A stretch of DNA of 64,000 nt from the NCBI GenBank assembly GCA_027491155.1, contig JAIXWR010000028.1, forward strand, positions 62,001 through 126,000. Reading direction: 5' to 3'. The stretch comes from Verrucomicrobiaceae bacterium (GTDB lineage Bacteria; Verrucomicrobiota; Verrucomicrobiia; Verrucomicrobiales; Akkermansiaceae). The first letter of the stretch is position 1; each line of letters starts with the position of its first letter. The notes beneath the pieces are model-generated. The model made no database searches and was not told the origin of the DNA. It saw only the letters and a program-made list of their open reading frames with translations. The translations under genes were made by a program, and so were the position numbers. Shown here piece by piece: positions 38,254 to 42,457 of the stretch.

Positions 38254-38727
38254 TAAACTCTCCGGTCCCACAACACCCTGCGTACGGCTCTGGACAAAGC
38301 GGCTCCTATCAGACACGGACATCTTTGCCGTAGTGTAGAACGATCCAGATGACACCGGACACCGCACCAGGCATTCAGTCAAATATCACGACGCGCAGCT
38401 CATTGACCACCAGCGCCTTCCTCTACAGAAGCAGACCCTGAAATCCGGAACGGAACACACCCCGGTGGTGTCTAACCAAGCGACACCCCTGAAGGCCCGC
38501 GACTGCGCGGACCGGATTTACTGCCCGGCGTCTTGTCTGGAGCTGCGTCGCAGGTGGGGAATTTCAATCCAGCGGATTCACTAAGCGGACCCGGGGGAAG
38601 CGCCCAACGAACGTCTTTACCTGTCCCTTTCGCACCCCCTTGAGGAGTTCTTCGTCGATTCGACAACGTGGGGCGAAGCCTCATGAACTGGCCCGATTCC
38701 CCAACCGCCCGCCGCGTCATCCCAACC
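38254..38727. other. Intergenic region without a convincing gene
   Basis: 474 bases with intermediate GC content. Open frames here are short, Pro/Arg/Ser-rich and lack recognisable motifs. I see no strong hairpin, tRNA or repeat. The segment separates the low-GC ORF from the convergent Fic gene and may be degenerate former coding DNA. Confidence 0.5.
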
Positions 38728-40113
38728 TTACCCCCACACCACCCTCCAAGCCTCGAACTCCGACGGCCTCACCCGATACCGCGCGAAATTCCCTTCATGA
38801 ATCCCGGCAAGGGTTTCTTCCGCAGCGGCGACGAATCGTTTGCGGTCGGCTTCGATCAAGGAAGCTTCCGCCCATCGGCGCAGGCGGGCGACGGCTTCGC
38901 GGCGGTCGCAGCGGGAGCGGATGATTTCCGCCACCTGATCGGCGATGGCCTGGCGGTATCGGACCCGGAAGGGATCGGGATCGCCGACGGCCCCGCGGAT
39001 GACGGTGTAGCGTTGGGCGGAGCGTTCATAAGCCCGGATGAAGACTTCCTGCAGGATGCGGAGGTCGTTGAGCTCGTAGACGGCGAGCACTCCGTCGGTG
39101 TAGTCGGCCTCGGAGACATCGACGAAGGAGAGCGGGGCGAGGTTGTGCCGGAAGAGCGGCAGGTTGGCGGCGAGGCGGGAGACCCGCTTGTTGCCGTCGA
39201 TGAAGGGCTGGAGGTAGGGCAGGTGGACCATCGCGAAGAACGCCTGCTCGAAGGGATCCCGGATCTCGCGGGCCTTGGCCAGGATGGTGTCGAAGAGCGT
39301 CTCGATCAGCGCGGGGATGGCAGGCGGAAGGTAGGACGACTTGCCGATGCCCACCGGCACGGTCCGCAGGGCGCCTTCCGCGGAGGGATCGCGCAAGAGG
39401 TCGGCGGTGAGCAGGGCGTGGAGGTTGAGGATGGTCCGGCGGTCGAATCCGGCCTCGGTGGATGATTCCAGCAGGAACTCGATGGCGGCCTTGTGGTTGA
39501 GGATCATGACAGCCTCCAAGGAGAGCTGCGAGTCCCCGGAATGCCCTGCTTGAAGGAGTTGCTCGGTTTCCAGAAGGGAGTAGGTATTGCCCTCCAGCCG
39601 GCTGGAGTTCCACGAGAGGTCGATGAGAAGACGCTGGCAGATGTTGCGGGCATAAGTGCCGGCAGGTTCCGCTTCCATCCCTGTCTGACTGCCGATCTCG
39701 AAAAGCCTCCGCCGGACGGGGTCCGGCAGGTAGTGGGTTTCGTTGGGAGTGTAAGCGTCCAGGAACGAGCGCTGGTAGCCCACCGCCGGTCGCCCGGAGA
39801 CAGGCTGGCGGAGTGCTTTCCGTACTTCTTCAGCCCCGGTTGACAGGCGGGAGGGAAGCGGCCCCGCGCTCTCGGAAGGCTGCGACGGTGGATCCGACTC
39901 CAGTGTCGCCCGTCCTGCTTCGGTGAGCTGGTAGATCGTGGCGCGGGAATCCCCGTGCCGATCGATCCAGCCTGCGTCGCGCAGACGCTTGAGCCGGTTC
40001 AATGCGGTCCGCCGGGGAAGCGGCGGCGTGAAAGCCGCTTCATAATCCCCTGCGCCCCATCTCTCGCGGAGCCGGAACGGTTCGAGCCATTCGACAGGTG
40101 TCGGGCGCTTCAT
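38728..40113 (-). CDS. Fic-domain protein with N-terminal winged helix; catalytic His replaced by Gln
   Basis: 461 residues. Residues ~33-72 (RRTALNRLKRLRDAGWIDRH, then IYQLTEAGRATL) look like a winged-helix DNA-binding domain. An inhibitory motif (S/T)xxxE(G/N) is present as SSRLEGN (S170...E174-G175), placing it with Fic proteins that carry an N-terminal autoinhibitory helix. The active loop reads LQPFIDGNKRVSRL (residues 301-314) against the canonical HPFx(D/E)GN(G/K)Rxx(R/G), so the catalytic histidine is glutamine (Q302) while the phosphate-binding DGNKR part is kept. It is probably not an ordinary AMP-transferase. The start codon overlaps the first unit of a phased repeat array, which suggests autoregulation. 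Confidence 0.85.
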   Translation of the reverse strand: MKRPTPVEWLEPFRLRERWGAGDYEAAFTPPLPRRTALNRLKRLRDAGWIDRHGDSRATIYQLTEAGRATLESDPPSQPSESAGPLPSRLSTGAEEVRKALRQPVSGRPAVGYQRSFLDAYTPNETHYLPDPVRRRLFEIGSQTGMEAEPAGTYARNICQRLLIDLSWNSSRLEGNTYSLLETEQLLQAGHSGDSQLSLEAVMILNHKAAIEFLLESSTEAGFDRRTILNLHALLTADLLRDPSAEGALRTVPVGIGKSSYLPPAIPALIETLFDTILAKAREIRDPFEQAFFAMVHLPYLQPFIDGNKRVSRLAANLPLFRHNLAPLSFVDVSEADYTDGVLAVYELNDLRILQEVFIRAYERSAQRYTVIRGAVGDPDPFRVRYRQAIADQVAEIIRSRCDRREAVARLRRWAEASLIEADRKRFVAAAEETLAGIHEGNFARYRVRPSEFEAWRVVWG

Positions 40114-40219
40114 GGCGAGAAAATGGCGAAAAACAGAGAGAATGGCAAGGAAATGGCGATTAAATGGCGAGAGACCGAATCAATGGCGCCAAAATGGCGA
40201 GAAACCGCCCAAATGGCGA
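40112..40219. promoter_or_regulatory. Eight phased direct repeats (ATGGCGA) over and upstream of the Fic gene start
   Basis: Units start at 40112, 40123, 40142, 40153, 40164, 40183, 40194 and 40213, so the spacings are 11, 19, 11, 11, 19, 11 and 19 bases: one or about two turns of the helix, which places every copy on nearly one face of the DNA. Core is A-ATGGCGA with variants ATGGCAA and ATGGCGC. The first unit contains the Fic start codon on the other strand. This looks like a multi-site operator or iteron array; the winged-helix part of the Fic protein is an obvious candidate to bind it. Confidence 0.75.
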
Positions 40220-40399
40220 GAAACTGGCTTCAGTCGGGTCATCCGCGTCCGTCCGGTCGTTTCTCCCGGCTTCACACCCAACCCCAGGAATGCGAAACCC
40301 GAGAAACCCCGTTCGAGCCACCGGTCACCCCCAGAATTCCCCCACCCCCAAATTTCCCCGGCAAATCCCCCTCCTCCGCGGAGTATCACCGCAAGCCTC

Positions 40400-42457
40400 A
40401 TGAAACTTTCCCGCTGCCTCCTCCTCCTGCTCCCGGCCCTCTTTCCCGCTGCGGGGGCCAAGCCGCTGCCGGAAAACACCGTCGCCCAGGCCGCGGCGCG
40501 GATCGACCGGTTGCTTGAGGACGATCTCCAACGCGCGAAACTCGCCCCCACCGCGATCATCGACGACGCCACCTTCGTCCGCCGCGCCTACCTCGGCATC
40601 GCCGGCCGCATCCCGTCGGCGGAAGAAGCCCGTGCCTTCCTCGACGACAAAAGCCCCACCAAGCGCGCCGTCCTGGTCGACCAGCTCGTCGCCTCGCCCG
40701 GCTTCGACTCGCACCTCTTCAACTGGACCGCCGACCTGCTCCGCGTCCAGACCCGCCAGGAACAGTTCGGCCTCGGCTGGCACGTCTGGCTCCGCAAGTC
40801 GCTCGCCGAGGACATGCCCTGGGACACCCTGGTCAGCGAGATGCTCACCTCGAACGGCCACTGCTCGGACGACCCCGCCGTCGGCTACTACCTGCGCGAC
40901 CGCAACATGCAGCTCGATAACTTCAGCAACACCATGCAGGTCTTCCTCGGCCGGCAGATCGGCTGCGCCCAGTGCCACGACCATCCTTTCGACGACTGGA
41001 GCCAGTTCGAATACTACCAGATGGCGGCCTTCGGCGGCGGCATCGAATACAAGAGCAAGGACGCGCAGGACGCGATCCGCAAGACCGTCAAGGCCCTCTC
41101 CAACAACCGCACCGCCAAGGAGCCCGCGGCCAACTTCGCCCCCAAGCCCGGCAAGAAGAGCAAGCAGGACCTCAACAAGGCGAAACAGCTCGAAAAGCAG
41201 AGGAAGAACGAACAGCAGCGCCTGACCCGCACGGTCGGCAGGCAGCTCAACCCGCTCTTCAAGGACTTCAACAAGAACGCCATCCTCGAGGACCCCGGCT
41301 CGATGCTGAAGCTGCCGGAAGATTACCAATACCGCGACGGCAAGCCCGGCGAAGTCATCCAGCCCGAGACCCTCTTCGGCGAGAAGGTCAGCAACGTCGC
41401 CCCCGAGAAGCGCCGCGACACTTTCGCCGGGTGGCTGACCTCGCGCGACAATCCCTACTTCACCAAAGTCATCGCCAACCGCCTCTGGGACCGCGTCTTC
41501 GGGCACGGCCTGGTCGATCCGCTCGACGACTGGAACGACGACTCCACCAGCGCCCACCCCGAGGTCCTCGCCTACCTCGAGACCACCATGAAGGGCGCCA
41601 ACTACGACCTCCGCCAGTTCCTCCGCATCCTCTACCGCACCCGCCTGTTCCAGCGCGCCTGCCTCGAAGAAGAGCCCGACATGGGCGTCCCGCTCGCCTT
41701 CCGCGGCCCGGTGCTCACCCGGATGAGCGCGGAGCAGCTCCACGATTCCTTCCTGGTGCTCTTCCACGGCGAGGTCGAGGACAGCAGCAACGAATTCGCC
41801 AAAGATTGGGAGGCCTACCGCAGCCAGGTCAAAAGCCTGCTCAGCACCGAGCCGAAGCAACTCATGGTCATGGGCAAGTCCGCGCAAGAAGGCGAACAGC
41901 TCTTCCGCAAGGCACAGTCCGAGTTCCGCGCCGCCCAGCGCGCCCTCTCCGACGCCGACACCGGCGAGGCCCGCGCCAAGGCCCAGCGCGAATTCCAGGA
42001 AGCACGCCGCGCGGTCGGCGAGGCCCGCCGCCAGTATGATCCCTTCAAGGGCATGCAGATGGGCAAGAAGGCCGGCGGCAAGAACGGCAACAGCACCCTG
42101 CGCGCCTCCGAGCAACCCGCCCCCTTCAATCCCGGCACCCTCGTCCGCGAGTTCGGCGGCTCCGACCGCCAGACCCCGTCGTCCAGCCACACCGAGGCCA
42201 CCGTCCCGCAGGCCCTCGCCCTGCTGAACAACAACCGCACCGACCCGCTGTCCGGCAAGAAGACCCGCCTCGGCCAGGCCCTCGAACGCTGCGACTCGCC
42301 CGAGGAGAAGCTCGACCTGCTCTTCATCACGCTCTTCAGCCAGCGCCCCGACGCGGACGACAAGCAGCGCTTTCTCGTCCACGCCAAGGACCCCGCCGCC
42401 CTCCGCGACCTCACCCGCGCCATGCTGACCTCCAGCCGCTTCCTTTTCATCCAGTGA
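40400..42457 (+). CDS. DUF1549/DUF1553 domain protein, secreted
   Basis: 685 residues from ATG 40400, giving signal peptide MKLSRCLLLLLPALFPAAGA; the frame is open back into the repeat array, but that part is not coding-like. ATFVRRAYLGIAGRIPSAEE opens the DUF1549 (PSCyt2) domain and IGCAQCHDHPFDDWSQFEYY carries a CxxCH heme-like motif. The central part has a Lys-rich coiled coil (KKSKQDLNKAKQLEKQRKNE). DUF1553 (PSD1) spans FAGWLTSRDNPYFTKVIANR to the C-terminus. These paired families are hallmarks of Planctomycetes/Verrucomicrobia and are linked to breakdown of complex polysaccharides; the biochemical role is unproven. It precedes the DUF1501 gene, its usual partner. Confidence 0.9.
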   Translation: MKLSRCLLLLLPALFPAAGAKPLPENTVAQAAARIDRLLEDDLQRAKLAPTAIIDDATFVRRAYLGIAGRIPSAEEARAFLDDKSPTKRAVLVDQLVASPGFDSHLFNWTADLLRVQTRQEQFGLGWHVWLRKSLAEDMPWDTLVSEMLTSNGHCSDDPAVGYYLRDRNMQLDNFSNTMQVFLGRQIGCAQCHDHPFDDWSQFEYYQMAAFGGGIEYKSKDAQDAIRKTVKALSNNRTAKEPAANFAPKPGKKSKQDLNKAKQLEKQRKNEQQRLTRTVGRQLNPLFKDFNKNAILEDPGSMLKLPEDYQYRDGKPGEVIQPETLFGEKVSNVAPEKRRDTFAGWLTSRDNPYFTKVIANRLWDRVFGHGLVDPLDDWNDDSTSAHPEVLAYLETTMKGANYDLRQFLRILYRTRLFQRACLEEEPDMGVPLAFRGPVLTRMSAEQLHDSFLVLFHGEVEDSSNEFAKDWEAYRSQVKSLLSTEPKQLMVMGKSAQEGEQLFRKAQSEFRAAQRALSDADTGEARAKAQREFQEARRAVGEARRQYDPFKGMQMGKKAGGKNGNSTLRASEQPAPFNPGTLVREFGGSDRQTPSSSHTEATVPQALALLNNNRTDPLSGKKTRLGQALERCDSPEEKLDLLFITLFSQRPDADDKQRFLVHAKDPAALRDLTRAMLTSSRFLFIQ

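Follow-up and report, generated by a model that had tools for sequence, protein, structure and literature searches.

A helically spaced repeat array at the start of a winged-helix Fic gene, and its probable role as the operator of that gene

Among the described systems in which a Fic domain and a helix-turn-helix (HTH) are joined in one chain, CccR of Yersinia pseudotuberculosis carries a class II inhibitory motif and represses its own gene by binding upstream, according to the passages of PMC9755527 that deal with it; its deletion raises the activity of its own promoter 3.3-fold, and it footprints two inverted boxes. The same passages present CccR as a type VI secretion system (T6SS) effector with a C-terminal HTH and a canonical Fic motif (HPFGNGNGRTVR), which AMPylates FtsZ. 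CbFic2 (CBU_0822) of Coxiella burnetii, as described in passages of PMC10628234, likewise combines a Fic domain with a winged HTH, two-stranded and C-terminal, whose DNA binding is coupled to the Fic part; it is an active enzyme that binds random DNA with high affinity, and these passages define no operator for it. Kinch et al. (2009; PMC2686095) discuss HTH-Fic fusions and suggest such regulation, and the passages concerned contain no operator, array, code or His-to-Gln family. Here we describe, in a stretch of 64,000 nucleotides from a Verrucomicrobiaceae bacterium (contig JAIXWR010000028.1, positions 62,001 to 126,000; hereafter the window), a Fic gene (fic) for a protein with a predicted N-terminal winged helix, the start of which is overlapped by an array of eight short direct repeats. 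As judged from sequence comparison, this array is in all likelihood the operator of fic, bound by the winged helix of the Fic protein itself, most likely for negative autoregulation. The gene and the array units are the following.

38728..40113, minus strand: winged-HTH Fic gene, 461 amino acids (aa), ATG start; from the open reading frame (ORF) list, with a PF02661 match at E 9.3e-13 and 268 related stretches
40112..40118, plus strand: array unit 1, ATGGCGA (TCGCCAT on the fic strand), overlapping the fic start codon
40123..40129, plus strand: array unit 2, ATGGCGA
40142..40148, plus strand: array unit 3, ATGGCAA, one mismatch
40153..40159, plus strand: array unit 4, ATGGCGA
40164..40170, plus strand: array unit 5, ATGGCGA
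40183..40189, plus strand: array unit 6, ATGGCGC, one mismatch
40194..40200, plus strand: array unit 7, ATGGCGA
40213..40219, plus strand: array unit 8, ATGGCGA

The eight ATGGCGA-type units occupy 40112-40219 in a single direction, head to tail, with steps of 11, 19, 11, 11, 19, 11 and 19 base pairs (bp) between their starts; six are exact, and a ninth, weak copy (CTGGC) may follow at about 40224, as seen by eye. The starts and steps agree exactly with those reported in the first-pass annotation of this DNA, as does the overlap of unit 1 with the fic start codon (CAT on the plus strand, 40111-40113). In 212 bp (200 bp upstream of the fic start plus 12 bp; one mismatch allowed, both strands) one 8-mer occurs eight times, against a shuffle mean of 3.2, a copy number reached in none of 100 dinucleotide shuffles. 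The pair pattern ATGGCGA-N3..5-ATGGCG occurs five times in the 5.73-Mb genome of the bacterium, two of these within the window array, and the reversed pattern, used as a control, not at all; two of the other three places (L004 and L005) hold a single pair each and no array. A recurrence of the array in many unrelated regions of the genome was therefore not seen with the one pair pattern searched. A plus-strand ORF runs through the array (40112-42457), and its better start is at 40400, where a PSCyt2 domain gene begins; translated from there, this divergent frame on the far side of the array matches the PSCyt2 and PSD1 families.

Arrays are found at most of the relatives examined. The contig scan gave 268 related stretches, from which 80 loci were retained; from the 184 loci examined, removal of nine without a readable HTH, three with short upstream DNA and 23 near-duplicates left 149 non-redundant loci, in which the window is represented by L006 (97% identical protein) and the upstream regions of relatives are anchored on the HTH. 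A blind motif score had a median of 27.7 upstream of fic in these loci, against 12.6 in 191 control regions at other ORFs of the same loci, and 73% of the fic upstream regions lay above the 95th percentile of the controls; core words occurred 0.85-1.59 times each per region upstream of fic and 0.15-0.25 times in controls. The first six relatives, all Verrucomicrobia or Akkermansia kin by title, comprise five loci labelled TCGCCA like the window and a sixth, L011, with TTGCCA; steps of 11 bp occur in all seven window-type loci (window counted) and steps of 19 bp in four of them. Arrays of GCGCCA, GCGACA, GCGCAA and more are found in more distant relatives, whose record titles point to Proteobacteria, kin of Desulfobacterota, Chlamydiae and others.

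When each of the 149 loci was labelled by its commonest core word, taken from the DNA alone, 43 were GCGCCA, 28 GCGACA, 20 GCGCAA, 12 GTGCCA, 6 CGGCCA, 5 TCGCCA and 2 CGGACA, with 9 ties and 24 unlabelled; this set of seven core words was drawn up with the data in view. In seven of the ties GCGCCA stands level with GCGCAA (in one of them GTGCCA as well), since TGGCGCAA, read on its two strands, yields both words; these seven were counted as GCGCCA and the other two ties were left out, giving 123 labelled loci for the covariation and tree-pair counts. Two to eight units per locus are present in 111 of 115 labelled relatives, and one in the other four, in a set selected in that labels required two words. 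A lack of the array in homologues, which would have refuted the first interpretation, was thus not observed: homologues do carry arrays, most of them clearly, though not all. The proposed search for ATGGCGA was too narrow, as outside the nearest Verrucomicrobia the arrays are built of other words (GCGCCA, GCGACA, GCGCAA, CGGCCA, GTGCCA). The L006 array has five units and that of the window eight, with proteins 97% identical, so that array copy number changes faster than protein sequence.

The evidence that connects the array with the Fic protein comes from the protein's N-terminal part, which had been called winged-helix-like and for which an AlphaFold model of the protein (mean predicted local distance difference test score (pLDDT) 83, predicted template-modelling score (pTM) 0.62, 27 sequences) indeed predicts a winged helix, with helices at residues 7-14, 21-26, 34-46 and 65-73 and strands at 50-53 and 60-63. 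Helix 34-46 is the putative recognition helix; six sub-threshold Pfam matches lie inside residues 34-74, several of them to winged-helix or regulator families.

39895..40095, minus strand: predicted winged HTH, residues 7-73; AlphaFold model, mean pLDDT 86-94 per ten-residue block from 11 to 70
39976..40014, minus strand: putative recognition helix, residues 34-46 (RRTALNRLKRLRD), directly after P33; position from the AlphaFold model, covariation with the unit

Across phyla, as read from the aligned loci, the unit word changes in step with residues of this putative recognition helix. Where the position of N39 holds Tyr, His or Phe, 19 of 20 loci have GCGCAA, against one of the 129 loci without such a residue (149 loci). 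The Tyr/His rule predates the retrieval of L086 and the loci after it, and its extension to Phe, which concerns one locus (L131), came afterwards; in the 74 non-redundant loci fetched later, the rule with Phe gives 11/12 against 0/62 (Fisher p 3e-12, ignoring relatedness) and the strict Tyr/His rule 10/11 against 1/63. Sixteen plasmid loci, fetched from 25 matches with better-ranked and more varied ones preferred by choice and including the close pairs L222/L223 and L224/L228, follow the rule with Phe in 7/7 against 0/9, several of the seven being close to each other; five of the nine negatives (L231-L235) are distant, have other helices and contain none of the seven core words twice. In terms of mutual information over 453 protein columns, N39 is the best column for core base 5 (0.61 bit, the next 0.21), and P33 (0.24, level with G20) and R34 (0.22) are at the top for core base 4, core bases 3 and 6 being invariant among the labelled words. 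By a rule made after seeing the data, Asn, His, Asp or Glu at P33, or Pro or Ser at R34, is present in 25 of the 30 labelled loci whose core base 4 is A, and in none of the 93 others. A FastTree tree built from the Fic part alone has seven changes of the GCGCAA trait, six of the residue and 32 of the full label; supported independent tree pairs never run in opposite directions, and the rule for A at base 4 gives seven pairs (median p 0.03). In the viral set, inspected by eye, the word at each of the 11 loci other than L194 had already been met together with a similar helix, and several of these loci are near-copies of one another.

A number of observations weigh against the reading of the array as an operator read by this helix. 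L078 has GCGCAA although its N39 position is occupied by neither Tyr, His nor Phe, and L139, an unlabelled locus, has Tyr there without GCGCAA. For core base 1, L38 is first (0.51) only narrowly over a column of the Fic part (0.46); for core base 2, R34 comes second by a small margin to R89, which lies outside the helix; and when the core is taken as a whole, the Fic columns S198 and A326 rank directly behind N39. The position of R89 and the high rank of Fic columns indicate that relatedness contributes and has been incompletely removed. GCGCAA taken alone gives four supported tree pairs (p 0.125, not significant), and the tree is a FastTree tree only. No word wins in 24 of the 149 loci and nine are tied, 27% of the fic loci fail to exceed the control 95th percentile, and a crude promoter pattern is present in only 17 of the 149 upstream regions, in five of them on the opposite strand. 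The viral locus L194 has a mixed GCGCCA/GCGACA array (L194:3741-4000), which, together with its intermediate helix PSRRSLQRWL, is possibly a specificity in transition. Finally, of two Fic genes of the same genome that lie outside the family and were intended as array-free controls, L191 has an array (score 30.0), the other, L193, scoring 15.4.

Inspection by eye of single loci revealed further repeats. L139 has other repeats (AAAG-GGCATTTT) about 250 to 100 bp upstream of the start of its open frame, and among L231-L235, with unrelated helices, repeats of other words were seen, namely ATCGTTTCA in two Sulfitobacter plasmids and GAGCAGATT in Cupriavidus necator.

The spacing of the units provides a second line of evidence. 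The first-pass annotation had placed all units on the same face of the DNA, taking each step as about one or two helical turns. In DNA of 10.5 bp per turn this suits the 11-bp step (1.05 turns), but an exact two-turn phasing of the 19-bp step was not accepted, 19 bp being 1.8 turns. The vector strength of the window array is 0.71 at 10.5 bp, which 4.9% of random gap sets reach, and 0.93 at its best period of 10.1 bp, which 0.5% of random sets reach within 10-11 bp. The family-wide spacings back the phasing much more strongly than those of the window alone. In 115 loci of six label classes, with distances above 60 bp and matches less than 5 bp apart left out, distances between neighbours of the same direction peak at 9-12, 18-22, 30-32 and 40-42 bp, those of converging units at 12-14 and 21-24 bp and those of diverging units at 16-20 bp; all three sets are described by a pooled period of 10.2 bp once an orientation offset of 2.25 bp is allowed, the mean cosine being 0.76, against at most 0.20 among 300 null draws. 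Units across the Fic family as a whole thus lie preferentially on one side of the helix.

A unit word that follows the recognition helix and a 10.2-bp quantisation of the spacings together make it very probable that the array is bound by the Fic protein itself, as had been suggested as the simplest case when the array was first noticed, and repression is the likely outcome of the binding. In the predicted mechanism, the protein would bind the array through its N-terminal winged helix, one protomer per unit, with neighbouring protomers lined up on one face of the DNA and cooperativity arising through the Fic part; the bound protein would then cover the promoter region and the start codon, whereby its own synthesis would be held down. 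That the promoter is covered we only infer, because a sigma-70 promoter and terminator scan of 38400-40500 called none and the crude promoter pattern is found in few upstream regions. By analogy, CccR proves the principle of autorepression by an HTH-Fic protein, which is thus already known in the form of two inverted boxes. According to the same passages of PMC9755527, those boxes have a 26-bp gap, whereas the window has eight direct units and no such single pair; the HTH of the window protein is N-terminal, unlike those of CccR and CbFic2, and its self-binding is deduced from covariation. The earlier remark that no described Fic system has this arrangement therefore needs qualification, as CccR is a described HTH-Fic autorepressor. 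Long phased arrays, a residue-to-base code and a His-to-Gln change throughout the family did not turn up in the open-licence literature searched, which is weak evidence of absence, and none of the titles listed there concerned arrays or a winged-helix code in Fic proteins.

The Fic part of the protein has two features of consequence for its role.

39589..39606, minus strand: SSRLEG, residues 170-175, class II inhibitory-helix motif [ST]xxxE[GN]; invariant in 27 aligned sequences
39175..39210, minus strand: Fic active-site loop QPFIDGNKRVSR, residues 302-313, with Gln for the catalytic His; alignment to a FICD homologue

The match to the Fic/DOC fold (PF02661) scores 49.3 bits against a curated cut-off of 24, and an NCBIfam profile search of the protein gave none above cut-off. 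The Fic core fold is shared with FICD/HYPE and Caenorhabditis elegans FIC-1 (PDB 6i7l, 5jj6; Foldseek template-modelling (TM) score by target 0.60, E 6e-8; phmmer E 2e-13), a match limited to the Fic part, and Coxiella Fic protein 2 (8cil) is also a match in the fold search. In contrast to FICD/HYPE and FIC-1, which have the catalytic His, the family of the window has Gln: the FICD catalytic His aligns with Gln302, the window protein reads QPFIDGNKR where the canonical AMPylase motif is HxFx(D/E)GN(G/K)R, and Gln holds this position in 174 of the 174 loci in which the motif was found (184 examined) and likewise in L132 and L140, two of the other ten. The canonical motif of CccR also differs in this respect. 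SSRLEG precedes the Fic motif, as in class II Fic proteins, which, with their inhibitory motif, are treated in passages of PMC9755527, and the pattern is present, at any position, in 147 of the 149 proteins. The retention of this motif suggests that nucleotide binding still matters, and the Fic domain may be a non-AMPylating part for ligand sensing or oligomerization. Matches to the PADLOC models SoFic (E 6e-14) and PDC-S04 (E 1e-14) extend over the Fic part and leave the N-terminal winged helix outside; with no cut-off given, the shared fold is enough to explain them. SoFic is a one-gene Fic defence protein, and a defence role for the window protein is conceivable. PHROGs matches, too, cover the Fic part only and are to families of unknown function.

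These features bear on the alternative that retains most ground, namely that the Fic protein binds the array and activates, or that DNA binding mainly switches the state of the Fic part, as with CbFic2, which is proposed in passages of PMC10628234 to go from AMPylation to deAMPylation on DNA binding; the kept SSRLEG would also be odd for a fully idle domain. We nevertheless regard this as unlikely, since in six of the seven window-type loci a unit overlaps the start codon (two of these units being the variant ACGCCA), which suits a block, since the characterized HTH-Fic protein CccR represses, and since the catalytic His is missing in every locus read.

A different repressor, for which fic is merely one target, would be in keeping with the general knowledge that operator arrays of separate regulators are common, and is given only a slim chance here, for the unit covaries with the recognition helix of the Fic protein itself. 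Furthermore, no family of neighbours of at least 80 aa is common to more than 9 of the 149 loci (the family that reaches this number is, on inspection by eye, an ABC-type ATPase), so that the array goes with fic. In addition, the genome contains a second member of the family (L104, contig C3:346554-347666), 54% identical over the aligned part, which has the helix KKRTLQRRL and TCGTGCCA-type units, both different from those of the window gene; two paralogues in one genome thus have two different arrays. A FicTA-like toxin-antitoxin pair with a neighbour was also considered and found unsupported among neighbours of at least 80 aa, a size under which a small antitoxin would fall.

An RNA-level element in the fic leader, acting by attenuation or translation control, would account for the overlap of unit 1 with the start codon and is nonetheless very improbable: the window-type array runs in one direction only, but both unit orientations occur in 93 of the 111 labelled loci with at least two units, as expected for a DNA site and not for an RNA site, and the spacing has a helical period. 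Least probable of all, to a degree that can practically be neglected, is a functionless tandem duplication of a short word or a coding repeat, which the head-to-tail units and their differing number in close relatives (eight here, five in L006) might recall, and which is already refuted by the covariation, unless that is an artefact, the relatives having different words, mostly in both orientations and at quantised spacing, and the array lying upstream of the fic ATG, with the plus-strand ORF better started beyond it. Coding repeat, RNA leader element and separate repressor were all rejected on such covariation, orientation, spacing or neighbour evidence.

With autorepression through its own operator as the preferred role of the window array, a wider proposal can be put forward, to which we give somewhat less than an even chance: the family may consist of widespread one-gene, self-wired regulators, in which a Fic fold without His-based AMPylation would serve as sensor of a nucleotide or another ligand and as oligomerizer, stacking on one face of a private array under a simple residue-to-base code, with new helix/array pairs arising recurrently and copies within one cell insulated from each other. 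The loci form a natural cross-phylum data set on a DNA-binding protein that would have changed several times in concert with its own operator. Candidate residues and bases can be named, so that a winged-helix recognition code becomes directly testable; the loci also supply repressor/operator pairs that may be insulated from one another. Further, a Fic branch that lacks the catalytic His but keeps the inhibitory motif offers a defined system for asking what role Fic has without AMPylation.

Arrays are not confined to this Fic branch, because L191 and four of its relatives carry them as well. L191, a Fic gene outside the family on contig C23 of the same genome (ORF 793-2361, canonical HPFSDGNGR), has a long upstream array of GTAATCG/GTAACCG units that extends across its start codon (L191:463-832), and its relatives L206, L208, L209 and L210 have, by eye, arrays of yet other words. 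Arrays may therefore be a general habit of HTH-bearing Fic genes.

The distribution of the window's Fic family among genomes is patchy. It was found in 18 of 286 genomes of the window's class (E 1e-30) and, with other members as queries (E 1e-40), in 39/369, 7/337, 4/218, 25/100 and 6/247 genomes of relative-centred groups, each count including the centre genome. A phage collection gave no match at E 1e-20; the family is present on plasmids (25 records) and in 11 viral contigs. In one distant relative, L103, a tRNA-Glu gene (L103:2303-2380) lies close upstream of fic.
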